The notes beneath the pieces are model-generated. The model saw nothing but the letters and a program-made list of their open reading frames with translations, searched no databases and had not been told where the DNA came from. A program made the position numbers and the translations under genes. A stretch of DNA of 64,000 bases from Pyruvatibacter mobilis (lineage in GTDB: Bacteria; Pseudomonadota; Alphaproteobacteria; CGMCC-115125), in assembly GCF_012848855.1 (NCBI RefSeq), contig NZ_CP051630.1, forward strand, positions 351,501-415,500, in the 5' to 3' direction. Below are positions 272 to 14,997 of this stretch, in pieces (position 1 is the first letter of the stretch; every line of letters starts with the position of its first letter).

Positions 272-3200
272 CTACCACTCGATCCGCTCGATGCCTTCGA
301 AGCTGATCTCGCTGCCGTCGGACAGGGTGATGACACCGGTTGCGTCGCTCGAGAGGTCGAGCGAGTCGTCATCCTGAGCGCTGATGGAGCCGGTATCGAG
401 GGAAATCGTCCAGTCGGATGCTTCCAGCGACGTGCCATCGGCATTTTCCAGGCGGATCGTATCGGTCCAGCCGGTGCCGCCGTCAGCGGTATCGCTGCCG
501 TCTCCCATGCCGAAGAGGAACAGATCCTCCCCGCTGCCGCCGTCCATGCTGTCATTGCCCGCACCGCCGCGCAGGATGTCGTTGCCGCTGCCGGCCTGCA
601 GGGTGTCGTTACCGTCGCCGCCCAGCAGCACGTCGTGACCGGTGCCGCCGTCAAGGAGGTCGGCGCCATCGCCGCCTACAAGCAGGTCGTTGCCATCATT
701 GCCGCGAATGGTGTCGTCGCCATCGCCGCCATACATGCTGTCATGACCCGAACCGCCATGCATGGTGTCGTTGCCGCTATAGCCGCGGATCTCGTCATTG
801 CCGTCATTGCCGTTGAGCTCGTTGTTGCCCGAGCCGCCAATCAGCAGGTCATCCACATGGGTGCCGCTTTCGGTCCCGCTGGTGGATGCATAGATGACAT
901 CTTCCGGCGCCCAATTGTCCGGCGTGCCGGCATGGCCAAGATAGGTGGCGTTGTTGTCGCCATCAGCGGTGAGGGCAATGTTGTCGAGGGAATAGTACTC
1001 AGATGAGTCCGTTGTCTTGCTCTCGAACTCGATCGTGACCCTGTCCCCTTCGGGAATACCGGTAAGGCTATAGGACTCGGTACCGTTCATTCCATCCTTG
1101 CCGTCCTGGACAAGGAGCTCGGTCCGTTCTCCGTCGACGACGGCATATGCCCTGAAGAAATCGTGGTGCGAACCCGATGATTCCATGCCGCCGGTAGCAG
1201 TCAGGTCGAAGCTCAGTGTCAGGCCTGTGCGGCCGCTCACATCAATTGGTTCACTGCGCCAGACCAAGACAGACTGGTCGGCGTCGGACGTGTTGGTTGT
1301 CTGTGAGAACTCGTAGGCTTCGTTCTGTACGCCGTGGTCAGTGGATGATCCGTAGTCCGACAACCCGGTGTCGGTGGACCATGAAGTGTCACCATTGTCC
1401 GCGGTAGCGCCATTGGACAGCCCGGAGAAGTTTTCGCTCCACAGGGTTTCCGATGCCGGTGCGCTTGCCACGTGAACCGGCAATTGTGCCGTGACCGTTG
1501 AGGTGGCGCCGCCTTCGCTCTCCGTCGACGTTGCGTTGACGGCAAGTGTCATGGTGCCTGTGAAGGACGAGGGCGGTGTCACGCTGACGCTGTCCAGGTC
1601 CCAGTTGCTGACATCCACTGACGTGCTGCCGCCGGTGGCCGTAAAGGTGTTGTTGCCATCCGTAAGCACTGCGCCTTCGGGCAGGGCCGAAATGGTCACA
1701 GCCAGGGTCTCTGAGCCATCAAGGTCCGTGAGGCTTGCGGAAATACCCGGCAAATCAATTGCCGCGTCTTCTGTGCCACTGGCAGCGCCATCGAGCGTTT
1801 CTGCCATCTTGATGTTGTCGAGCATCATCCCGCGGCCGTAATCGACATCTGTTCCCGCCGCTCGGAACTCGATTTCAGCGGGGTTGCCGTCGCCGGTCAG
1901 CGTGAGTGTGTGAGACTGCCAGTTCAGCGCCCCGTCATTGGTGCCGTCGGCAGAGATCGTCGCCACCACCTGACCGTCCCACACGACTTCCATGCGGTTG
2001 ACCGTCGCGTCGTAGCCCTGGCGCGGGGCGTAGTCGAAAGTCACCGTATAGGTGCCGCCATCGACCGTATCCACGGAGCGGGCAATGTTGGGGGCGTCCT
2101 CATAGGTGTCGGTCGGATCGTTGTTCAACTCAATATGTTCGATCGACCCTGCGCGCGAGCCGTTACCTCCCTCACCTTCATCGCGGACCTCGACGGACGC
2201 ATCTGAAGACCAGCCATTCTGGGCGGCAACCTGATCACCGCTACCGTCAATGGCTGTACCTGACCAGCCCTCGAAGTCCTCCGAGAAGACCGTGCGGGAT
2301 GTGCTGCCGAGGGACAGGGTGGGGGCAGAGGCAACTTCATCCACATCGCCCACGGCGATGCTGAAAGTCTCCGTGTAGGTCGCACCGGCGGCGTCCGTCG
2401 TCGTGATGTCGAGAGATACAGTCGCGCCGGCCTCGTGGTCCAGGCTGACACCGTCCTTCAGTTTCAGCTTGCCATCGACCACTTCGAAGCGGTTGTCGGA
2501 GACGGCATAGGTGTGCGTGTCCCCTGCATCCGCATCCACGACGCCCAGATTGCCGATGACAGCGCCTGCCGCGTTTTCCATGACGGAGGCATTGTCGAGG
2601 GTGATGTCTGTCGGTGCCTCATTTGTGCTGACCACATTGATGGTCGTCACCTGGCTGACACTTGCGGTGTCCGCATTGCTGGCTTCGGTTGCGGTCGCCG
2701 TGACTGTCAGGTCAAAGCTGCCGGTGAAACCCGGCTGCGGGACAACCTGCAGGGCATCCACATCCCAACCGGTCACGTCAGCTTCCGTGTTGCCGGCAGT
2801 GGCTGTGAAGCTGTTGGTTCCGTCGGTGATGGTGACGCCGACAGGCACGCCGCTGACCGCAAGGGCCAGGCTTTCTGACCCATCGGTGTCGGACAGGGCT
2901 GCGTCGATGCTGAGCGCGGCAAACCCGTCCATGGGAGCGGTGATTGTATCTGCGCTCTCGGTGGCGGTGACCAGCTGGCGGCCGGATGTGTCAGGGCCAT
3001 CCCATTCAAGCTTGAGGCCGGCATCGCCTGTGTTCTCGAAGTACCGGACTTCGATCACATGGGGACCATCGGAAAGGCTGATGGTTGCGGACTGGGTGGA
3101 GAATGAATGCAGGCTGTCATGATCGATGACCAGTTCGCCATCGATGTAGAGCTGCGCCCCATCATCCGCACCGAGATAGAAGGTGTAGTCACCGCCGGTG

Positions 3201-6200
3201 TCGACCGTGATGTTGCCTTCCACCTTAACGCCGAAGGTGTCTGTGTCACCGCCTTCCCAGAACGATCCTCTGCCATTCTGGTAATCGATGTTCGTCACTG
3301 TCTCGCTGGCAGCCGGAGCGGCGTCCCAGTCAACGTCGGAAAGGCGGCCGAGATGCGAGTCCTCGCTGTAGTAGGTCGCGGTGAAGCCCTGGGACAGGCT
3401 GAGCGACGGTGCGTCGGCGTCAGCCGTCACATCGATTGTGGCCGTACCCTGGACCGTTGTCGGACCATCCTGAACATCGAAGGTGATGTTCACATCTGCA
3501 GCTGAGTAGTCGTCGGCCGGGGTAAAGGTCCAGGTGCCATTGCCATTGTCGACGATCGTGCCCGCCGAGGCATCGACCGTCACATTGGCGACGACGGCGA
3601 GGCCGAGATTGTCGTCTGATGCATTGGCAAGAAGATCAGCGCGGGTGATGACAATGGATGTGTCCTCGTTGGTGGCGCCGAGATCGACATTGCCTACAAC
3701 AATCGTTTCGTTCACGTCTTCTACCGAGATGGTGAAGGTCTCGGTACGCGACAGGCCGCCCGCGTCGGTGGTTGTGACGTCGAGGCTGATGGTGTCGGCC
3801 GCCTCGTGGTCGAGGCTCACGCCGTCTTTCAGCTTCAGCTGACCGTCGACAACTTCGAAGCGGTCATCGGACACGGCGTAAGTATGGGTGTCGCCTGCGT
3901 CCGGGTCGGTGGTCGACAGGTTGCCGACGACGGCACCTGCCGCATTCTCGGCAATCGAGGTGTTATCCAGGGCGATGTCGGTGGCGACTTCGTTCTCATC
4001 GCCCACCGAGATGGTGAAGGTCTCGGTGCGGCTCAGGCCGCCCGCGTCTGTCGTCGTGACGTCGAGGCTGATGGTGTCTGCGGACTCGTGATCGAGGCTG
4101 ACGCCGTCCTTCAGCTTCAGCTGGCCGTCGACGACCTCGAAGCGGTCATCGGACACGGCATAGGTATGGCTATCACCTGGGTCCGGGTCGGTGGTCGACA
4201 GGTTGCCGACGACGGCACCTGCCGCGTTCTCGGCGACGGAATTGTTGTCGAGGGCGATATCCGTGGCGACCTCGTTCTCGTCGTCAACGGAGATGGTGAA
4301 GGTCTCGGTGCGCGACAGGCCACCTGCGTCGGTCGTCGTGACATCGAGGCTGATGGTGTCAGCCGCTTCGTGGTCGAGGCTGACGCCGTCCTTCAGCTTG
4401 AGCTGACCGTCGACGACCTCGAAACGGTCATCGGAGACGGCGTAGGTGTGGGTGTCGCCCGCGTCCGGGTCGGTCGTGCTGAGATTCCCCACCACGGCAC
4501 CAGCCGCGTTCTCGGCGACGGAAGTGTTGTCGAGGGCGATGTCCGTGGCGACTTCATTCTCGTCGTCGACTGAGATGGTGAAGGTCTCGGTGCGCGACAG
4601 GCCGCCGGCATCGGTGGTGGTGACGTCGAGGCTGATGGTGTCGGCCGCCTCGTGGTCCAGGCTGACGCCGTCCTTCAGCTTCAGCTGGCCGTCGACGACC
4701 TCGAAGCGGTCATCGGAAACGGCGTAAGTGTGGGTGTCGCCTGCGTCCGGATCGGTCGTGGTGAGCGTACCCACCACGGCGCCAGCTGCGTTCTCGGCAA
4801 CCGAGGTGTTGTCGAGGGCGATGTCGGTGGCGACCTCGTTCTCATCGCCGATGGAGATCGTGAAGGTCTCGGTGCGTGACAGGCCGCCTGCATCGGTGGT
4901 GGTGACGTCGAGGCTGACGGTGTCGGCAGACTCGTGGTCCAGGCTGACGCCGTCCTTCAGCTTCAGCTGGCCGTCGACGACCTCGAAGCGGTCATCGGAG
5001 ACGGCGTAGGTGTGGGTGTCGCCTGCATCGGGGTCGGTCGTGGTGAGATTCCCCACCACGGCACCAGCCGCGTTCTCGGCGACGGAGGTGTTGTCGAGGG
5101 CGATATCCGTGGCGACTTCGTTCTCATCGCCGACGGAGATAGTGAAGGTCTCAGTGCGGCTGAGGCCGCCTGCATCGGTGGTAGTGACGTTGAGGCTGAC
5201 GGTGTCGGCAGACTCGTGGTCGAGGCTCACGCCATCCTTCAGCTTCAACTGGCCATCGATGACCTCGAAACGGTCATCGGAGACGGCGTAGGTGTGGGTG
5301 TCGCCTGCATCGGGATCGGTCGTAGTGAGCGTGCCGACCACGGCACCGGCGTCGTTCTCCGCAACCGTATTGTTGTCGAGGGCGATATCCGTCGCGACTT
5401 CGTTCTCATCGCCGACGGAGATGGTGAAGGTCTCGGTGCGTGACAGGCCGCCTGCGTCAGTGGTGGTGACGTCGAGGCTGATGGTATCGGCCGCCTCATG
5501 GTCGAGGCTGACGCCGTCCTTCAGCTTCAGCTGACCGTCGACAACTTCGAAACGGTCATCGGACACGGCGTAGGTGTGGGTGTCGCCTGCATCGGGGTCG
5601 GTCGTGGTGAGATTCCCCACCACGGCACCAGCCGCGTTCTCGGCGACGGAATTGTTGTCCAGGGCGATATCCGTGGCAACTTCGTTCTCGTCGCCGACCG
5701 AGATGGTGAAGGTCTCGGTACGAGACAGGCCGCCTGCGTCAGTGGTGGTGACGTCGAGGCTGATGGTATCGGCCGCCTCATGGTCGAGGCTGACGCCGTC
5801 CTTCAGCTTCAGCTGACCGTCGACGACCTCGAAGCGGTCGTCCGAGACGGTGTAGGTGTGGCTATCGCCTGCGTCCGGGTCGGTGGTCGACAGGTTGCCG
5901 ACGACGGCACCTGCGTCGTTCTCGGCGACAGAGTTGTTGTCGAGGGCGATGTCTGTGGCGACTTCGTTCTCATCGCTCACCGAGATGGTGAAGGTCTCGG
6001 TGCGGCTCAGGCCGCCTGCGTCTGTCGTCGTGACGTCGAGGCTGATGGTGTCGGCAGACTCGTGGTCGAGGCTGACGCCATCCTTCAGCTTGAGCTGGCC
6101 ATCGACGACCTCGAAGCGGTCGTCCGAGACGGTGTAGGTGTGGCTATCGCCTGCGTCCGGATCAGTGGTCGACAGGTTGCCGACGACGGCACCTGCGTCG

Positions 6201-9200
6201 TTCTCGGCGACAGAGTTGTTGTCGAGGGCGATGTCTGTGGCGACTTCGTTCTCGTCGCCGACGGCAATGGTGAAGGTCTCGGTACGGCTGAGGCCGCCTG
6301 CGTCGGTGGTTGTGACGTTGAGGCTGATGGTGTCTGAGGCCTCGTGGTCGAGGCTGACGCCGTCCTTCAGCTTCAGCTGGCCGTCGACGACCTCGAAGCG
6401 GTCATCGGAGACGGCGTAGGTGTGTGTGTCGCCTGCATCGGGGTCGGTCGTGGTGAGATTCCCCACCACGGCACCAGCCGCGTTCTCGGCGACGGAATTA
6501 TTGTCGAGGGCGATATCCGTCGCGACTTCGTTCTCATCGCCGACCGAGATGGTGAAGGTTTCGGTGCGGCTGAGGCCGCCGGCGTCAGTGGTGGTGACGT
6601 TGAGGCTGATGGTATCTGCGGCCTCGTGGTCGAGGCTGACGCCGCCTTTCAGCTTCAGCTGGCCGTCGACGATTTCGAAACGGTCGTCAGAGACGGCGTA
6701 GGTATGACTATCGCCGACGTCCGGATCAGTGGTCGACAGGTTCCCGACGACGGCACCGGCTGCGTTCTCGGCGATGGAGGTGTTGTCGAGGGCGATGTCG
6801 GTGGCGACCTCGTTCTCGTCGCCGACGGAGATGGTGAAGGTCTCAGTGCGCGACAGGCCGCCCGCGTCGGTAGTGGTGACGTCGAGGCTGACGGTGTCGG
6901 CAGACTCGTGGTCCAGGCTGACGCCGTCCTTCAGCTTGAGCTGGCCGTCGACGACCTCGAAGCGGTCATCGGAAACGGTGTAGGTGTGGGTGTCGCCTGC
7001 GTCCGGGTCGGTTGTGGTGAGATTCCCCACCACGGCACCGGCGGCGTTCTCGGCAACTGACGTGTTGTCGAGGGCGATATCCGTCGCGACCTCGTTCTCG
7101 TCGCCGACGGAGATGGTGAAGGTCTCGGTGCGCGACAGGCCACCTGCGTCGGTGGTGGTGACATCGAGGCTGATGGTGTCAGCCGCCTCGTGGTCGAGGC
7201 TGACGCCGTCCTTCAGCTTGAGCTGGCCGTCGACGACCTCGAAGCGATCGTCAGAGACAGCGTAGGTGTGCGTGTCGCCAGCGTCCGGATCAACCGTGGT
7301 GAAGTTCCCTACCACCGCACCGGCTGCGTTCTCATCGACGGAACTGTTGTCGAGGGCGATATCGGTGGCAACCTCGTTCTCATCGCTGACGGAGATCGTG
7401 AAGGTCTCAGTGCGTGACAGGCCGCCTGCGTCGGTGGTTGTGACGTCGAGGCTGATGGTGTCAGCAGCTTCGTGGTCGAGGCTGACGCCGTCCTTCAGCT
7501 TCAGCTGGCCGTCGACGACCTCGAAGCGGTCATCGGAAACGGCATAGGTGTGGGTATCGCCGGCATCCGGGTCGGTCGTGGTGAGCGTACCGACGACGGC
7601 ACCGGCGGCGTTCTCGGCGACGGAGGTGTTGTCGAGGGCGATGTCGGTGGCGACTTCGTTCTCATCGCTGACCGAGATGGTGAAGGTCTCGGTGCGGCTC
7701 AGGCCGCCGGCGTCAGTGGTGGTGACGTCGAGGCTGATGGTATCGGCCGCCTCATGGTCGAGGCTGACGCCGTCCTTCAGCTTGAGCTGGCCGTCGACGA
7801 CCTCGAAGCGGTCATCGGACACGGCATAGGTATGGCTATCACCTGCGTCGGGGTCTGTTGTGGTGAGATTCCCCACCACGGCACCTGCCGCGTTCTCGGC
7901 GACGGAGGTGTTGTCGAGGGCGATATCCGTCGCGACTTCGTTCTCATCGCCGACCGAGATGGTGAAGGTCTCGGTGCGTGACAGGCCGCCTGCGTCGGTG
8001 GTGGTGACATCGAGGCTGATGGTGTCAGCCGCCTCGTGGTCGAGGCTGACGCCATCCTTCAGCTTCAACTGGCCGTCGATGACCTCGAAGCGGTCGTCAG
8101 AGACGGCGTAGGTGTGGGTGTCGCCCGCGTCCGGGTCGGTCGTGGTGAGGGTTCCCACCACGGCACCTGCGTCGTTCTCGGCGACGGAGGTGTTGTCGAG
8201 GGCGATATCCGTCGCGACTTCATTCTCGTCGCCGACGGAGATGGTGAAGGTCTCGGTGCGTGACAGGCCGCCTGCGTCGGTGGTGGTGACGTCGAGGCTA
8301 ATGGTGTCGGCAGCCTCGTGGTCGAGGCTCACGCCGTCCTTCAGCTTGAGCTGGCCGTCGACGACCTCGAAGCGGTCATCGGACACGGCATAGGTATGGC
8401 TATCACCTGCGTCGGGGTCTGTTGTGGTGAGATTCCCCACCACGGCACCAGCCGCGTTCTCAGCAACTGACGTGTTGTCGAGGGCGATGTCGGTGGCGAC
8501 TTCGTTGACGTCGAAGATCTCGAGGGTAACGGTTTCGGTATAGGTGTTGCCGGCGCTGTCGGTGACGCGCAGGGGCAGGCTCACGCTGGCCTGGGCTTCG
8601 TGGTCGAGCTCGGCGCCGGGTTTCACGAGGATTGCGTTGCCGACAATCTCGAACATCTCCGAGCCGCCGACGATTTCGTAGGAGAAGACTTCGCCGGAAT
8701 CCGGGTCGATGGCGCTCAGGACCGCGACGACTGTGCCGGGGGCAGCGTTTTCAGGCACCCCGGCATTGTCAAGGAGGATATCGGTCGGGGCCTGATTGAT
8801 GATTTCGTTGGACACGACAATGTTGTCGTCGTCCTCCGGCACTTCGGACTGTCGGGGCGGAGCGGCGGGTACGTCTGTCGCGGCCGATGCTGCCTCGGAC
8901 GCGGAGTTCTCGCTCGAAGTGGCGTCATCGGTGAGCGCATCCGCAAGGCGTGCGATGCGATCCGTGAGTGCGTCGAGGGACGAGATACCGGATTCAAGAG
9001 CGGTGTCGAGGGTTGCGTCATCCAGTGTCGGGACAGGGGTCGCGGCAGACTGACCTGCCTCGCCTGCAAACCCTGTGTTGCCGGATGCATCAGAGGCCTG
9101 AGTCCCGAAGGGAGCGGCAGGCTGACCGGAGGCATCTGCCGGCGCGAGGCCAGGCGACTGAGAGGCGGGTGCGCCCGTCAGGCCTGTGTCGACGCCAGGT

Positions 9201-9415
9201 GTGCCGTCGAGGCGTGTGCCTGTGTGCGTGTTGGCGTTTGCCGGGTCGTTCTCACCTGCAAGAACTTCGCTCTGACCATAATCACGGACACGGTCCGCAT
9301 TATCGTCGCGGGCTGCCGCGCGCGCCGTGTCGAGGTGAAAGTCCTCCGTAGACGGTGTCTGGGAGGCGGGCCGGCCCTGGGTCTCGTTACCGCGGGGGGT
9401 CTGACCTTCAGCCAT
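272..9415 (-). CDS. Giant RTX adhesin with cadherin-like tandem repeats and PA14 domain
   Basis: A 3047-residue protein predicted to leave the cell by type I secretion and act at the surface in adhesion. From the N-terminus: a low-complexity region rich in D, A, T and S with a short possible coiled coil (about 1-210); one divergent cadherin-like repeat (211-304); 17 near-identical 94-residue repeats (305-1902); a further cadherin-like segment; a PA14 domain (about 2014-2146, hallmark GADDGAQLYIDG); another divergent cadherin-like repeat (about 2268-2362); two jelly-roll-like segments starting EDFEGW and SENFSG; 12 RTX nonapeptides such as GGDGNDTLQ (about 2860-2968); and a C-terminal tail ending FEGIERIEW, typical of type I substrates. 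The start at 9415 has AGGAG six bases upstream; an in-frame ATG at 9481 lacks one. The secretion operon diverges from it. Domain order resembles large RTX adhesins with extender repeats, a PA14 ligand-binding module and RTX. The ligand is unknown. Confidence 0.93.
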   Translation of the reverse strand: MAEGQTPRGNETQGRPASQTPSTEDFHLDTARAAARDDNADRVRDYGQSEVLAGENDPANANTHTGTRLDGTPGVDTGLTGAPASQSPGLAPADASGQPAAPFGTQASDASGNTGFAGEAGQSAATPVPTLDDATLDTALESGISSLDALTDRIARLADALTDDATSSENSASEAASAATDVPAAPPRQSEVPEDDDNIVVSNEIINQAPTDILLDNAGVPENAAPGTVVAVLSAIDPDSGEVFSYEIVGGSEMFEIVGNAILVKPGAELDHEAQASVSLPLRVTDSAGNTYTETVTLEIFDVNEVATDIALDNTSVAENAAGAVVGNLTTTDPDAGDSHTYAVSDDRFEVVDGQLKLKDGVSLDHEAADTISLDVTTTDAGGLSRTETFTISVGDENEVATDIALDNTSVAENDAGAVVGTLTTTDPDAGDTHTYAVSDDRFEVIDGQLKLKDGVSLDHEAADTISLDVTTTDAGGLSRTETFTISVGDENEVATDIALDNTSVAENAAGAVVGNLTTTDPDAGDSHTYAVSDDRFEVVDGQLKLKDGVSLDHEAADTISLDVTTTDAGGLSRTETFTISVSDENEVATDIALDNTSVAENAAGAVVGTLTTTDPDAGDTHTYAVSDDRFEVVDGQLKLKDGVSLDHEAADTISLDVTTTDAGGLSRTETFTISVSDENEVATDIALDNSSVDENAAGAVVGNFTTVDPDAGDTHTYAVSDDRFEVVDGQLKLKDGVSLDHEAADTISLDVTTTDAGGLSRTETFTISVGDENEVATDIALDNTSVAENAAGAVVGNLTTTDPDAGDTHTYTVSDDRFEVVDGQLKLKDGVSLDHESADTVSLDVTTTDAGGLSRTETFTISVGDENEVATDIALDNTSIAENAAGAVVGNLSTTDPDVGDSHTYAVSDDRFEIVDGQLKLKGGVSLDHEAADTISLNVTTTDAGGLSRTETFTISVGDENEVATDIALDNNSVAENAAGAVVGNLTTTDPDAGDTHTYAVSDDRFEVVDGQLKLKDGVSLDHEASDTISLNVTTTDAGGLSRTETFTIAVGDENEVATDIALDNNSVAENDAGAVVGNLSTTDPDAGDSHTYTVSDDRFEVVDGQLKLKDGVSLDHESADTISLDVTTTDAGGLSRTETFTISVSDENEVATDIALDNNSVAENDAGAVVGNLSTTDPDAGDSHTYTVSDDRFEVVDGQLKLKDGVSLDHEAADTISLDVTTTDAGGLSRTETFTISVGDENEVATDIALDNNSVAENAAGAVVGNLTTTDPDAGDTHTYAVSDDRFEVVDGQLKLKDGVSLDHEAADTISLDVTTTDAGGLSRTETFTISVGDENEVATDIALDNNTVAENDAGAVVGTLTTTDPDAGDTHTYAVSDDRFEVIDGQLKLKDGVSLDHESADTVSLNVTTTDAGGLSRTETFTISVGDENEVATDIALDNTSVAENAAGAVVGNLTTTDPDAGDTHTYAVSDDRFEVVDGQLKLKDGVSLDHESADTVSLDVTTTDAGGLSRTETFTISIGDENEVATDIALDNTSVAENAAGAVVGTLTTTDPDAGDTHTYAVSDDRFEVVDGQLKLKDGVSLDHEAADTISLDVTTTDAGGLSRTETFTISVDDENEVATDIALDNTSVAENAAGAVVGNLSTTDPDAGDTHTYAVSDDRFEVVDGQLKLKDGVSLDHEAADTISLDVTTTDAGGLSRTETFTISVDDENEVATDIALDNNSVAENAAGAVVGNLSTTDPDPGDSHTYAVSDDRFEVVDGQLKLKDGVSLDHESADTISLDVTTTDAGGLSRTETFTISVGDENEVATDIALDNTSIAENAAGAVVGNLSTTDPDAGDTHTYAVSDDRFEVVDGQLKLKDGVSLDHEAADTISLDVTTTDAGGLSRTETFTISVEDVNETIVVGNVDLGATNEDTSIVITRADLLANASDDNLGLAVVANVTVDASAGTIVDNGNGTWTFTPADDYSAADVNITFDVQDGPTTVQGTATIDVTADADAPSLSLSQGFTATYYSEDSHLGRLSDVDWDAAPAASETVTNIDYQNGRGSFWEGGDTDTFGVKVEGNITVDTGGDYTFYLGADDGAQLYIDGELVIDHDSLHSFSTQSATISLSDGPHVIEVRYFENTGDAGLKLEWDGPDTSGRQLVTATESADTITAPMDGFAALSIDAALSDTDGSESLALAVSGVPVGVTITDGTNSFTATAGNTEADVTGWDVDALQVVPQPGFTGSFDLTVTATATEASNADTASVSQVTTINVVSTNEAPTDITLDNASVMENAAGAVIGNLGVVDADAGDTHTYAVSDNRFEVVDGKLKLKDGVSLDHEAGATVSLDITTTDAAGATYTETFSIAVGDVDEVASAPTLSLGSTSRTVFSEDFEGWSGTAIDGSGDQVAAQNGWSSDASVEVRDEGEGGNGSRAGSIEHIELNNDPTDTYEDAPNIARSVDTVDGGTYTVTFDYAPRQGYDATVNRMEVVWDGQVVATISADGTNDGALNWQSHTLTLTGDGNPAEIEFRAAGTDVDYGRGMMLDNIKMAETLDGAASGTEDAAIDLPGISASLTDLDGSETLAVTISALPEGAVLTDGNNTFTATGGSTSVDVSNWDLDSVSVTPPSSFTGTMTLAVNATSTESEGGATSTVTAQLPVHVASAPASETLWSENFSGLSNGATADNGDTSWSTDTGLSDYGSSTDHGVQNEAYEFSQTTNTSDADQSVLVWRSEPIDVSGRTGLTLSFDLTATGGMESSGSHHDFFRAYAVVDGERTELLVQDGKDGMNGTESYSLTGIPEGDRVTIEFESKTTDSSEYYSLDNIALTADGDNNATYLGHAGTPDNWAPEDVIYASTSGTESGTHVDDLLIGGSGNNELNGNDGNDEIRGYSGNDTMHGGSGHDSMYGGDGDDTIRGNDGNDLLVGGDGADLLDGGTGHDVLLGGDGNDTLQAGSGNDILRGGAGNDSMDGGSGEDLFLFGMGDGSDTADGGTGWTDTIRLENADGTSLEASDWTISLDTGSISAQDDDSLDLSSDATGVITLSDGSEISFEGIERIEW
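3710..8503 (-). repeat. Tandem array of 17 x 282-bp repeats inside the adhesin gene
   Basis: Seventeen consecutive 282-bp units each encode a 94-residue module that begins EVATDIALDN and ends near TFTISVGDEN. Units differ at only a few positions (DNT/DNN/DNS, ENAAG/ENDAG, VGNL/VGTL, LTTT/LSTT, GDSH/GDTH, YAV/YTV, AADT/SADT), and these variants are shuffled between copies. The acidic DENE/DPDAGD stretches suit calcium binding at module junctions, as in cadherin-type repeats. Flanking copies on each side are clearly more diverged. Confidence 0.97.
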
Positions 9416-9718
9416 GTCGAACTCCTGTTGCCGCTGTGCCGGCCCTTGCTTTCTGGGGCCGGTGGGGTCGGGCGCATACACGCGCCCACGCTTACGACAA
9501 GTGTGTTCGGTCAGGCGTTAAGTCTTGATTTAGAGACGTGGTAAAGCCGAATGCGCGAGACACTCGCCCAATACGGGTGAATTACCAATTTTACGACCTT
9601 CCGTGGTCTGAGAAATCGAGCAAAACGGGGATCGATAAAACTTGAATTAACTAAGTCGCAAATTTTGGGATTTACCAATTCAGTCTTTAGACGAGCTCGA
9701 ATTGGAATTAGCGCTTAA
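9416..9718. promoter_or_regulatory. AT-rich divergent control region between adhesin and secretion operon
   Basis: This 303-bp gap separates the divergent starts of the adhesin (9415) and the first exporter gene (9719). It is much richer in A and T than its surroundings. TTACCAATT occurs twice in direct orientation (9582-9590 and 9672-9680, exactly 90 bp apart), and AATTGG, the inverted core, lies at 9700-9705 just before the exporter start. TTAA-N7-TTTA at 9518-9532 is one base away from a CtrA-type box. No coding sequence or clear -35/-10 pair could be fixed. Confidence 0.55.
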
Positions 9719-11497
9719 ATGACCGCAACCCGGACCGCGAACCGGCGTGACCAGGATCACGTGCTCGCACCGCCGAAACTCGGCGCTGGTGTCTGGATTG
9801 CGTCGCTTGCGATCAACGTGCTGGCGCTTGGCCTGCCGATGGTCATTCTCCAAGTCTATGACCGTATTCTTCCCAATGAGGCACTTGGGACCTTCGCGCT
9901 CCTGCTGGGCGGCCTTGCGGTCGTGCTGGTACTGGATGCTACGCTGAAGATTGCGCGCGCCCATGTAGTTGGCTGGGCTGCTGCGCAATACGAACATCAG
10001 ACGGCGACGGAGCTGGTCGGGCGCTTCCTCTACGCAAGCCCGACGGAGATCGAGAGCGCACCGCCAGGTGTGCATCTAGACCGCCTGCAGGCCATCGACA
10101 CTCTCCGCGAGTTCTACGGCGGCCAGTCGCGGCTGCTGCTTGTGGACTTACCGTTTCTTGTCCTGTTTCTCGGGCTGATCTTCGTGATCGGTGGTGCCGT
10201 TGTTCTCGTGCCGGTCGCTATGATCGGTGTCCTGGCTGTCGCGTCCTTCTTCGCGGGTCGCGCTCTCAAGGAGAGGCAGGCCCAGAGGGCGCTGCTGGAT
10301 GACCGGCGCTACAGCTTCATCATCGAGGCATTGTCGGGAATCCAGACCATCAAGAGCATGGCCATGGAGCCCCAGATGCAGCGGCGCTATGAGCGTCTGC
10401 AGGCAACGGGTGCGGCATCGGCTTACCAGTCGATTGTGCTGGGCAATGCGGTCCAGACGATTGGCGGTGTCATCTCGAACCTGACAATGGTGCTCATCGT
10501 TTCGGTGGGTGCCCTGTTCGTCATTGACGGAAGCATGTCGGTTGGTGGTCTTGCGGCCTGCACGTTGCTTGGCGGCCGGGCGCTGCAGCCGTTGCTCCGC
10601 GGCATGAGTGTATGGACCCAGATCCAAAGCCTTGACATCGCGAGGGCGCAGGTGGCGGAGCTACAACAGATGGATCATGCGCCGGCGCAGGAACCCCAGC
10701 ATCTGGATGGGCTCAAGGGGGTCGTGTCGTTCCGCGATGTGACCTTCCGTTATCCAGGCCAGGAGCAGGCGCTGCTCGACAAGTTCAGCCTGATCGTCAA
10801 GCAGGGCGAGATGCTTGCGCTGACGGGGCCGGAGGGGGACGGAAAGTCCACCTTGCTCAAGCTCATCATGGGGGAGCTTGCGCCGGAGGCAGGCAATGTC
10901 ACCATTGATGAACATGATGCATCCGGTGGTGAGCGGGACAATCTCGCGCTCGACATTGCCTATGTCCCGCCGGTGGCAACGCTGTTCAAGGGCACGATCC
11001 TCGAAAACCTGACCATGTTCCGCGAAGGTGATGCGATTGACCAGGCGCGGGAGGCTGCGCGGATGATTGGGCTCGAAGAGGACATTCACCGGTTGCCGCA
11101 GGGCTATGACACGGAAGTCAGCCAGGGTGTGTCGGACGAACTGCCCGGCGGCATGATGCAGCGGATCATCATCGCCCGGGCCCTGGCGCGGAATGCCCGC
11201 GTGCTGCTGTTCGATGAGGCGAATGCGGGCCTTGATCGCAAGGCGGATACGCAATTGATGGATGCCCTTGCCAAGCTGAAGGGGACGATGACCATCGTTG
11301 CCGTCAGCCATCGGCCCTCCCTCATCCGCATGGCTGATCGTGTGGTGTCCATCCACAAAGGCAAGGCCCGTCTCAATCATTCCTTCGCGCCGCCCAAGGC
11401 CAGCCCGGCGCCCGCCCAGGCGGACGACGGTGATGCGGCTGCTGCGGCGTCGTCTTCAGACGCTGACCAGCCCATCCAGGCAGGAGGTGCCGCATGA
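9719..11497 (+). CDS. Type I secretion ABC exporter subunit 1 (degenerate Q-loop)
   Basis: A 592-residue ABC transporter with a fused membrane domain (hydrophobic helices from about residue 22) and a C-terminal ATPase, without any N-terminal peptidase-like domain. Walker A is GPEGDGKST (about 371-379), Walker B VLLFDEANAGLD, and the switch histidine is kept in VSHRPS. The Q-loop reads YVPPVATLF where a glutamine is normal, and the signature is LPGGM rather than LSGGQ. The C-terminus is A/S/D-rich. It opens the operon diverging from the adhesin and overlaps the next gene by 4 bp (ATGA). It most likely forms a heterodimer with the next gene product to export the adhesin through the inner membrane. 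Confidence 0.9.
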   Translation: MTATRTANRRDQDHVLAPPKLGAGVWIASLAINVLALGLPMVILQVYDRILPNEALGTFALLLGGLAVVLVLDATLKIARAHVVGWAAAQYEHQTATELVGRFLYASPTEIESAPPGVHLDRLQAIDTLREFYGGQSRLLLVDLPFLVLFLGLIFVIGGAVVLVPVAMIGVLAVASFFAGRALKERQAQRALLDDRRYSFIIEALSGIQTIKSMAMEPQMQRRYERLQATGAASAYQSIVLGNAVQTIGGVISNLTMVLIVSVGALFVIDGSMSVGGLAACTLLGGRALQPLLRGMSVWTQIQSLDIARAQVAELQQMDHAPAQEPQHLDGLKGVVSFRDVTFRYPGQEQALLDKFSLIVKQGEMLALTGPEGDGKSTLLKLIMGELAPEAGNVTIDEHDASGGERDNLALDIAYVPPVATLFKGTILENLTMFREGDAIDQAREAARMIGLEEDIHRLPQGYDTEVSQGVSDELPGGMMQRIIIARALARNARVLLFDEANAGLDRKADTQLMDALAKLKGTMTIVAVSHRPSLIRMADRVVSIHKGKARLNHSFAPPKASPAPAQADDGDAAAAASSSDADQPIQAGGAA

Positions 11498-13650
11498 GCA
11501 GCGCACATGCGTCATCCACGCGCCCGGGATCGCGGCTTGAAACGCTGCTGCATGGCGGCGGGCTATCGAGCTTCCAGCCTACTTCTGCAACGGGTGCCTG
11601 CCTGGTGCCGCTGTTGAACGCGCTTGGCTGGCGCGGCGAGGCACGGCATCTGGCGGAAGCCCTGCCTCACTTTGCGGATTCTCTGGACCTCAACGACCTG
11701 CGTATGGTCCTTGCCAATCTTCATTATGTGACAGTCCCCGAGCGCACGACCCTGGCTGATCTGCGCAGCGAGCTATTGCCCTGCCTGTTCGCGCAAGACG
11801 GCAAGACGGCCGGTCTCGTGCTTGAGCGCAATGGCGACATGCTCACTGTGCTCGACGGAGTGGTTGGTGATGTCATGGAGGTCGAGGCCAGCGCCACGCT
11901 GGGTACGGCCTATTATGTCCGCAAGGCGAGCGACGCGCTTGAGGAACAGGAGAAGGCGGCTCAGGCCAATTGGCTGGGGGACGTGATCGGACGTTTCCGT
12001 GGTGTCATCTGGCAGGCGTTGGCGCTGACCTTCGTGATCAATCTCTTCGCCGTCATCGTCCCGCTCTTCATCATGGGCGTGTATGACAAGGTGGTTGCGA
12101 CGCGCTCGGCCGAGACGCTTGGGTTCTTCCTTGGCGGTGTGCTGTTGGCGCTTGCAGCCGATGTCGGTTTGCGGCTGGTGCGCGGGCAGATGCTTGCCTA
12201 TGTGGGCGCGCGGCTGGACATGCTGATTGGTGCGGCGGCGTTCGAGAAACTCATGCATATGCCCGTCAGCATGACGGAGCGTGCGCCGATCGGGGCGCAG
12301 ATCGCGCGGCTCAAGCAGTTTGAGACCGTGCGCGAGGTGTTTACCGGGCCCCTGGCAGCGGCGGCGCTGGACATGCCGTTCGTCATTCTCTTTCTGGTCG
12401 CCGTTTTCATGATCGGCGGGGTTATCGGCTTCGTGCCGGTAGCACTGATCTTTGGGTTCGTGTTGCTGGGGCTGGTCTCCTGGCCGCTCAGCAAGGCCCG
12501 GGTGCAACGGCTGGGTGATGCCCGCTCGGCACGGCAGGCATTTCTGATCGAGGCAATCGACAATCACCGGGTGGTGCGCCAGTCGGGCAACGGGCTTCAC
12601 TGGCGCAACCGCTTCCGTGACCTGTCGGCCAAGAGTGCTGCCGCCCATCACGGGGTATCCCATCTCGGGGTCATCGTTCAGACGATCAGCCAATCGATGA
12701 TGATGGCTGCCGGCGTGGGGACGCTGGCCGTCGGTACGCTGATGGTCATGGAAGAGATGATGACCATCGGTGCGCTCATCGGCACCATGGCGCTGGTTTG
12801 GCGCCTGCTGGCGCCGATCCAGGCGGCGTTTCTGGGGCTTAACCGTATCGAGCAGGTGAAGCAGTCCCTGTCGCAGGTCAATGCGCTCATGCGCCTGCAG
12901 GTGGAACGGGCGCCCAATCAGCACACGTCCTTCTATCGCGACTTCAAGGGGCAGATCACCTTCAGCAAGGTCAGCTTCCGCTATACGCCCAAGGCCGAGC
13001 CGGCGCTTGTTGGTGTCGACTTCAAGGTAAAGCCAGGTGAGATGATCGCCATTACCGGGTCGAGCGGGTCGGGCAAATCAACCATCCTCAAGGTGTGCTC
13101 GGCGCTTTACATGCCGCAGGCGGGTGCGGTCGGTATTGACGGCAACGACCTGCGGCAGCTCGACAAGGGCGATCTGCGCAACGCCATTGGCTATGTGCCG
13201 CAACGGACAGCGGTCTTCCATGGGACTATCGCCCAGAACATGCGCCTGGCAGATCCGACTGCAAGCACAGAGCGCATTCACAAGGCTTTCGCTGAAGCGG
13301 GCCTGACGGACTTCATCGCGTCGCTGCCGGAGGGTATCGAAACGCGCATGACGGACCAGTTCCAGCGCCGGCTTGCCGACGGGCTGCGCCAGCGTTTCGC
13401 CCTGGCCCGGGCCTATGTGAAGGACGCTCCCATTTACCTTCTTGATGAGCCTGCAAACAATCTTGACGACGAAGGTGACGAGCTTTTGCGCCAGAAACTT
13501 GCGAAATTGAAAGGACGTTCATCCGTTTTAATGGTTACTCAACGCCCGTCCCATATGAAGATTGCAGACCGGGTTGTGGTTATCGACCAAGGGCGCGTTC
13601 TGATGGACGGGCCTCCGGACCAGGTCCTTGCTGAGTTGTTTGGGGGCTGA
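11494..13650 (+). CDS. Type I secretion ABC exporter subunit 2 with C39-like domain
   Basis: A 718-residue ABC exporter. Residues about 20-150 resemble the C39-like, non-proteolytic domain of HlyB-type exporters: the usual catalytic-cysteine context is replaced by SATGACLVPLL, so no leader cleavage is expected. Membrane helices follow from about residue 168. The ATPase has Walker A GSSGSGKST, Q-loop YVPQRTAVF and Walker B IYLLDEPANNLD. The signature is LADGL in place of LSGGQ, and the switch histidine is replaced by glutamine (MVTQRPS). It starts inside the end of subunit 1 (ATGA overlap), and the HlyD gene starts 3 bp after its stop, so the three are surely co-transcribed. Its defects complement those of subunit 1, pointing to an asymmetric heterodimer. 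Confidence 0.92.
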   Translation: MSSAHASSTRPGSRLETLLHGGGLSSFQPTSATGACLVPLLNALGWRGEARHLAEALPHFADSLDLNDLRMVLANLHYVTVPERTTLADLRSELLPCLFAQDGKTAGLVLERNGDMLTVLDGVVGDVMEVEASATLGTAYYVRKASDALEEQEKAAQANWLGDVIGRFRGVIWQALALTFVINLFAVIVPLFIMGVYDKVVATRSAETLGFFLGGVLLALAADVGLRLVRGQMLAYVGARLDMLIGAAAFEKLMHMPVSMTERAPIGAQIARLKQFETVREVFTGPLAAAALDMPFVILFLVAVFMIGGVIGFVPVALIFGFVLLGLVSWPLSKARVQRLGDARSARQAFLIEAIDNHRVVRQSGNGLHWRNRFRDLSAKSAAAHHGVSHLGVIVQTISQSMMMAAGVGTLAVGTLMVMEEMMTIGALIGTMALVWRLLAPIQAAFLGLNRIEQVKQSLSQVNALMRLQVERAPNQHTSFYRDFKGQITFSKVSFRYTPKAEPALVGVDFKVKPGEMIAITGSSGSGKSTILKVCSALYMPQAGAVGIDGNDLRQLDKGDLRNAIGYVPQRTAVFHGTIAQNMRLADPTASTERIHKAFAEAGLTDFIASLPEGIETRMTDQFQRRLADGLRQRFALARAYVKDAPIYLLDEPANNLDDEGDELLRQKLAKLKGRSSVLMVTQRPSHMKIADRVVVIDQGRVLMDGPPDQVLAELFGG

Positions 13651-13653
13651 CGG

Positions 13654-14997
13654 GTGAAACTCGGGCTTCACAGAATAAAACGCCGCTTGCTGGGTGCGCC
13701 GGATGAAAAACTCCTGGCGCTGCCGCTGGCGTTGGAAGAAGGCAAGGCACCGCGCGTTGCGAGCCTGATCCTGATGGTCGTCAGCGTCTTCGTCGGTCTC
13801 GCCATCGTCTGGGCTTCGCTTACGACGGTGCGGGAGCTTGCCGTTGCGGGAGGCCAGGTAGAGCCTGCGGGCTCTGTCCTTACTGTGAAGCACCTGGAAG
13901 GTGGGGTCATCGGAGACATTCTGGTCTCCAATGGCGAGCTGGTGGAAGCCGGGGACACGCTGGTGACGTTCCAGCCGACCCTGCTGGGTGCGGATCTGGA
14001 CCAGGCTGAGGTCAAGGCCGCAACGCTTGCGCTGACGGCTGAACGGTTGAAGGCCTTCATTGAAGAACGTGCCCCGGAATTCGACGTGGCGCCGGCCTAT
14101 GCGCATCTCGCTGAAGAGCAGCTTGAAGCCTGGCGGCTTCAGTCTGCGTCGCGCGGAGAGCAGCGGGCGGTTGCCACAAGCCGCATTGCGCAGCGTGAGG
14201 CTGAACTCACGTCGCTGAAGAAGCGGGTGGGGAACCTGGAAATCCAGGTGGAAATTCTGGAAGAGCAGATGGAGATGCGCCGCGGGCTTGCGGAAAAGGG
14301 CCTGGTGTCGCGCATCGCATTTCTTGAAAGCCAGCGCAGTGTCGAGCAGACCCGCGGCGAACTCATTTCAACGCAGGGCCGCGTGGCTGAAATTACCCAG
14401 GCCCTGATGGAATCGAACAGCGCCCTGTCGGAGCTGAATGCGCGGCTTGTGGATGAGGCCAAGCGCGAGCGGGCACAGGCGCTGGGCGAACTTGTCGAAG
14501 TGGAGAGCCAGATTGCCAAGGCTGAAGACCGGGTGAAGCGCCTCGCCGTGCGTGCCCCGGCCCGCGGCCTTGTAAAGGGCATTACCGTTCATTCGGTGGG
14601 GGATGTGGTGCGGCCGGGTGACCCGGTGCTTGAAATCGTCCCTGTGGATGACGTGCTTGTCGCGCAGGTGGAGGTGGACCCAAAGGACATAGGCCACATC
14701 ACCATTGGCGACCGCGCCCATGTGCGTATCACCACCTATGACCCCGCGCGCTTTGGTCAACTCGAAGGCAGCGTGTCGAAGATTTCCGCGTCCACCTTTG
14801 AAAACGACCGGGGCGAGCATTTTTATCACGCCACCATCGCGCTGGACCGGAATTTTGTCGGCAGCGATACCGACAAGCATCTTGTGTTGCCGGGCATGGT
14901 GGTCACTGCAGAGATCGTGACCGGCTCCAAGTCGATCGTGCGCTATCTGCTGAAGCCGGTCTTCCGATCTCTTGATACGGCCTTCTCAGAACGCTAG
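13654..14997 (+). CDS. HlyD-family periplasmic adaptor of the type I system
   Basis: A 447-residue membrane fusion protein with one N-terminal membrane segment (about 32-55), a lipoyl-like half (HLEGGVIGDILVSNGELV), a long helical coiled-coil section (about 120-285) and the returning half-motif RAPARGLVKGITVHSVGD with a C-terminal beta region. It would bridge the inner-membrane exporter pair to an outer-membrane TolC-type channel, which is not in this window. The start is GTG at 13654, three bases after the preceding stop. Family length and motif order fit HlyD/PrtE proteins. Confidence 0.93.
   Translation: MKLGLHRIKRRLLGAPDEKLLALPLALEEGKAPRVASLILMVVSVFVGLAIVWASLTTVRELAVAGGQVEPAGSVLTVKHLEGGVIGDILVSNGELVEAGDTLVTFQPTLLGADLDQAEVKAATLALTAERLKAFIEERAPEFDVAPAYAHLAEEQLEAWRLQSASRGEQRAVATSRIAQREAELTSLKKRVGNLEIQVEILEEQMEMRRGLAEKGLVSRIAFLESQRSVEQTRGELISTQGRVAEITQALMESNSALSELNARLVDEAKRERAQALGELVEVESQIAKAEDRVKRLAVRAPARGLVKGITVHSVGDVVRPGDPVLEIVPVDDVLVAQVEVDPKDIGHITIGDRAHVRITTYDPARFGQLEGSVSKISASTFENDRGEHFYHATIALDRNFVGSDTDKHLVLPGMVVTAEIVTGSKSIVRYLLKPVFRSLDTAFSER

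Follow-up and report, generated by a model that had tools for sequence, protein, structure and literature searches.

Type I secretion is commonly presented as the work of a symmetric homodimeric motor. The stretch of DNA analysed here (64,000 nt, hereafter the window) carries two overlapping genes for two different ABC subunits, both with altered signature motifs, and a preliminary description of their sequence had proposed complementary ATPase defects and left it unclear which composite site hydrolyses ATP. The locus thus raises the question of how such a pair could drive secretion, which of its motif changes are fixed among relatives, and which of the two sites is the conserved one.

Results

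Organisation of the exporter locus

The first gene, S1 (9719..11497, + strand), is an intact open reading frame of 592 aa that encodes an ABC exporter half consisting of a transmembrane (TMD) and a nucleotide-binding domain (NBD) without a C39-like domain; the second, S2 (11494..13650, + strand), is an intact frame of 718 aa encoding an exporter half with an N-terminal C39-like domain. The two frames share 4 nt, in agreement with the preliminary description, and Pfam ABC_membrane and ABC_tran are present in both products. Only 3 nt separate the end of S2 from a gene for a HlyD-type periplasmic adaptor (13654..14997, + strand; 447 aa), which scores 343 bits against TIGR01843 (cut-off 208.65). 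An exporter TMD fused to an NBD and adjoining a HlyD-type adaptor identifies the pair as belonging to the type I secretion ABC exporters. The probable substrate, a giant RTX/cadherin-repeat adhesin of 3069 aa (272..9481, - strand), is encoded divergently from the exporter operon, its start lying 237 nt upstream of S1. Its Pfam domains are Cadherin (5.7e-87), HemolysinCabind (7.6e-23) and PA14 (1.4e-14), and its C-terminus reads ...ITLSDGSEISFEGIERIEW. The many near-identical cadherin-like repeats of the adhesin (positions 272-9481), each of about 100 aa, suggest that the repeats have recently expanded or been homogenised. Within the 64,000-nt window no gene for a TolC-type protein was detected; the three OEP (PF02321) proteins of the genome, a single contig of 3.33 Mb, are all encoded outside it. 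The same genome also harbors a second type I exporter, a single ABC protein with HlyD (G000:C1:2059500-2062514), which has canonical motifs (LSGGE, switch His kept) and provides a natural internal control.

Motif positions were assigned codon by codon, all on the + strand. In S1, Walker A is GPEGDGKST (aa 370-378; 10826..10852), the Q-loop position is occupied by Pro418 in place of Gln (CCG, 10970..10972; YVPPV), the signature is LPGGM (aa 475-479; 11141..11155), and the Walker B catalytic Glu500 (LLFDE; 11216..11218) and the switch His531 (11309..11311) are retained. In S2, Walker A is GSSGSGKST (aa 522-530; 13057..13083), the Q-loop Gln570 (YVPQR; 13201..13203) and the Walker B catalytic Glu652 (13447..13449) are retained, the signature is LADGL (aa 627-631; 13372..13386), and Gln683 (CAA, 13540..13542; VTQRP) takes the place of the switch His. 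The codons therefore bear out what had been described of the motifs: VPP and LPGGM in S1, LADGL and the switch Gln in S2, and an intact Walker A and Walker B Glu in both subunits. Four residues past the switch position, S2 His687 (13552-13554; RPSH) is invariant in 30 aligned S2 sequences, including those that lack the switch His.

AlphaFold monomer models of the two subunits (pLDDT 82 and 84) both have HlyB (8dck) as their best structural match, and both show the ordinary exporter fold. The C39-peptidase-like domain (about aa 27-150; 11572..11943, + strand) occurs in S2 only and is supported by the TIGR03375 alignment, in which S2 residue 35 corresponds to profile position 5 and S1 aligns from position 153 only, and by the match of the S2 model to HlyB chain A, which is nearly full-length. 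According to standard ABC geometry, a composite site is formed by the core of one subunit and closed by the signature of its partner (PMC7756269); the first site would thus combine the S1 core with S2 LADGL and the second the S2 core with S1 LPGGM.

Fixed and lineage-restricted motif changes

Relatives were gathered by profile and pattern searches. Of 385 genomes sampled from the same class, 43 yielded S1, spread over 35 of the 276 genera, and a further 42 genomes with S1 belong to other classes of the phylum. In all, 130 S1-S2 pairs were extracted, all from Pseudomonadota and mostly from Alphaproteobacteria. The 125 pairs that are complete as far as both signature and switch position form 82 clusters at 75% S1 identity. 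Since 80 named loci came from a pattern containing LFD[EA]AN, the fraction of S1 proteins with the catalytic Glu is, if anything, overestimated; the signature was absent from every search pattern.

The preliminary description had asked whether the altered residues are fixed, and had regarded canonical relatives as the sign of sporadic change. For the signatures no such relatives were encountered: LSGGQ was found in 0/130 S1 and 0/126 S2 sequences, and close variants (SGG plus Q, E, M, R or K) in none of the S1 or S2 sampled. In nearly all S1 proteins the signature reads LPxG plus a hydrophobic residue, with the proline in 74 and the second glycine in 76 of the 82 clusters; in most S2 proteins it is LPxG or LPxS with F or L next, and the second glycine is present in 47. 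All 20 control exporters, drawn from the same class, have the signature serine, and none has lost the Q-loop Gln, the Walker B Glu or the switch His. Thus, the altered signatures are a fixed trait of the family. The other two changes are restricted to certain lineages. The S1 Q-loop Gln is retained in 58/82 clusters; within the window genus the position is variable (P here, Ala in congeners), and the change to Pro is common to sister Parvibaculaceae (L048, L060, L061, L064), where the S2 core is intact, so that the S1 site probably degenerated first. The S2 switch His is retained in 72/82 clusters, its replacement by Gln being seen, besides the window genus, in three clusters only. Accordingly, the defects do not look to be all of one kind, and the proposal that they are complementary found no support. 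A compensation in which the S2 His is lost only where that of S1 is kept was rejected, since the two show no association (Fisher p = 0.74).

Conservation of the two composite sites

A comparison of the two subunits across the 82 clusters reveals a marked asymmetry. The switch His is present in S2 only in 44 clusters versus S1 only in three (p=2.5e-10), the Walker B Glu in 17 versus two and the Q-loop Gln in 21 versus three, while the signature glycine shows the opposite bias (S1 only in 31, S2 only in two; p=1.3e-7). These paired p-values are optimistic because the clusters are not phylogenetically independent, but counts on the trees agree in direction, with at least 21 changes of the His state in S1 and 6 in S2. 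As far as can be read from the sequences of the family, it is the Walker/Q/E/H core of S2 and the signature glycine of S1 that are conserved, the opposite site being degenerate. The uncertainty about the hydrolysing site that had been expressed earlier is thereby lifted at the family level; in the window genus taken alone the pattern remains ambiguous.

Three observations do not fit easily with hydrolysis at the S2 site. Degeneracy of the S1 core and of the S2 signature is uncorrelated (rho 0.02), although the two are expected to share a site, so that a coupled decay within the degenerate site was rejected; the two halves of the conserved site are weakly coupled (rho 0.28, p 0.012). Further, the signature of the conserved site is itself non-canonical (LPxG). 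Finally, one lineage (L224; S1 and S2 of G722) has reversed polarity: S2 has lost the Walker A Lys (to T), Gln (to E), Glu (to A) and His (to Q), and S1 retains Q, E and H.

The family rule may not hold in the window genus, as S1 keeps Glu500 and His531 and S2 lacks the His. It might thus be speculated that the roles are swapped or shared there, the S1 site closed by S2 LADGL hydrolysing ATP, or both sites doing so weakly. The residues kept in S1 and the reversed lineage make this the main rival, and the second glycine kept in the S2 signature here also speaks for it. However, in this genus S1 has lost the Q-loop Gln and varies at that position while S2 keeps it, the S2 signature has Asp at its third position, and the family statistics favor the S2 core. 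Moreover, H-loop mutations in the hydrolytic site of MRP1 (NBS2) mostly eliminate transport, with the exception of Gln and Asn, which leave it near wild type (PMC7756269), so that an H-to-Q change in such a site is reported to be functional. We therefore consider swapped or shared roles rather unlikely. Family conservation and the tolerance of MRP1 to the H-to-Q change indicate that the S2 site is probably the main hydrolytic site here despite Gln683.

In a derived clade of the same class (L054, L186-L191, L193), with genomes of about 1.4-2.1 Mb, the S1 ATP site is largely degenerate (E mostly replaced by N, H by D or N), and the Walker B/D-loop region of S2 contains an insertion. At several of these loci a protein of 590-900 aa ending in ...GLF is encoded just upstream on the same strand; the three compared with Pfam gave no match. 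Genes for a response regulator and a hybrid histidine kinase are located nearby.

Pairing and descent of the subunits

At every locus with room, S1 is directly followed by S2; the two genes share 4 nt in 72 of 112 pairs, and HlyD lies directly downstream at 115 of the 120 loci that offer room for it. Six loci (L053, L211, L212, L214, L215 and L226; one from the same class, five from other classes of the phylum) encode natural S1-S2 fusions as single polypeptides of 1298-1386 aa, one of them 1317 aa in length, and further open frames of similar size occur among the matches listed. When placed in one tree together with 20 other exporters, S1 and S2 fall into separate clades, each with full support. 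The S1-S2 pair is thus an ancient, co-inherited unit, always in the order S1 then S2 and sometimes a single chain. Large low-cysteine, acidic adhesin-like frames were identified within the examined flanks of 73/130 loci, and several of those beside S1-S2 pairs end in the same C-terminus as the adhesin of the window.

As each subunit is a complete TMD-NBD half-transporter, S1 and S2 might instead form two separate homodimeric exporters that have HlyD in common. The strict pairing over 130 loci, the overlapping genes and the natural fusions argue against such an arrangement, and an S1 homodimer would be without the catalytic E or the switch H in some deep relatives and without the Walker A lysine in a few; we regard it as very improbable. 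That the motif changes reflect relaxed, decaying sequence in an exporter falling out of use is hardly credible even though the H, E and Q states of S1 are scattered over the family, since dN/dS within the genus is 0.02-0.09 for both genes, indicating purifying selection, the frames are intact in congeners, the signatures are non-canonical family-wide and the S2 catalytic Glu is kept in 80/82 clusters. Two further congeners have intact frames, near-identical signatures and the same S2 Gln (the S2 of a third is without its C-terminus); together with the dN/dS values they speak against chance or decay.

An origin of the subunits from two unrelated exporters was tentatively rejected, as both best match TIGR03375 and each forms one clade, in a tree that fixes neither the root nor their sister relation. 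Among named records, the closest is a MAG of Candidatus Phaeomarinobacter (L056; S1 identity 84%), a genus known from brown algae (PMC4110880); the window genus is this one or a very close neighbour. A set of S1, S2 and HlyD is also present on a contig of Piscirickettsiaceae bacterium NZ-RLO1 (L122), a record labelled as a gammaproteobacterium, and may represent a transfer or a mislabelled contig. At L218 an S1-like frame occurs without a recognisable S2 alongside and was left out of the pairs.

Discussion

S1 and S2 most likely form one heterodimeric type I exporter, as judged from gene order, fusions and motif conservation. The heterodimer would work together with the HlyD encoded next to it and with a TolC-like protein from another locus; adjacency and the shared substrate C-terminus suggest that this machine exports the divergent cadherin/RTX adhesin. 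The main hydrolytic site would consist of the S2 core (Walker A, Q-loop and Glu652) closed by S1 LPGGM, with Gln683 standing in for the switch His in the window genus. The S1 core and S2 LADGL would make up a degenerate site that mainly binds ATP and holds the dimer, which is the role of the degenerate site in TAP, TM287/288 and TmrAB. As the sole C39-like domain, that of S2 may provide a single substrate-receiving domain per dimer.

The best-scoring family for both subunits is that of the LssB/LapB-type exporters (TIGR03375). The alignment of S2 spans the full model with its C39-like part, and LssB/LapB-type systems likewise have an adaptor and a giant RTX adhesin nearby. Both scores (S1 414.4, S2 508.6 bits) are below the curated cut-off of 693.1, and the present system differs in having two different subunits, no LSGGQ and an S1 without a C39-like domain. 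HlyB, the haemolysin exporter, has the same domain order as S2; however, it works as a homodimer in which both sites are canonical and both chains carry a C39-like domain. Asymmetric composite sites are known from TAP1/2, TM287/288, TmrAB and BmrCD, which are also among the structural matches, and the degenerate site of TAP shows both an H-to-Q change and an altered signature. In contrast to S1/S2, these proteins retain one canonical signature, and they are transporters of small substrates or peptides rather than HlyD-linked type I protein secretion systems. Two different ABC proteins in a type I system have been described for the MARTX exporter RtxB/RtxD/RtxE of Vibrio, in which RtxB and RtxE are both needed to secrete a giant RTX protein (PMC3034196). 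A two-ABC type I exporter as such is therefore of a known kind. The MARTX genes are, however, arranged B-D-E with the adaptor between the ABC genes, unlike the order S1-S2-HlyD here and in the relatives, and the MARTX substrate is a toxin. In the open-access text searched, only the RtxB/RtxE precedent and two-ABC loci of NHLP bacteriocins were found, and the S1-S2 family, with its double signature loss and its breadth, is apparently undescribed there.

Taken together, it might be hypothesized, with about even confidence, that this is a large heterodimeric, sometimes single-chain, family of type I exporters of Pseudomonadota in which giant adhesins are moved by a one-site motor with atypical signatures, the nearly fixed S1 LPxG[IVLM], in which the phosphate-contacting Ser is replaced by Pro, supporting hydrolysis at the S2 site, with one C39-like domain per dimer and no canonical signature. 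A widespread asymmetric pair without a canonical signature would allow a direct test of the contribution of the signature motif. The family would likewise make it possible to ask whether a single ATP site is enough to thread proteins that are thousands of residues long, and whether a second C39-like receptor is required. Finally, S1-S2-HlyD is a searchable unit by which exporters of giant adhesins that score below the cut-off of present models may be annotated.
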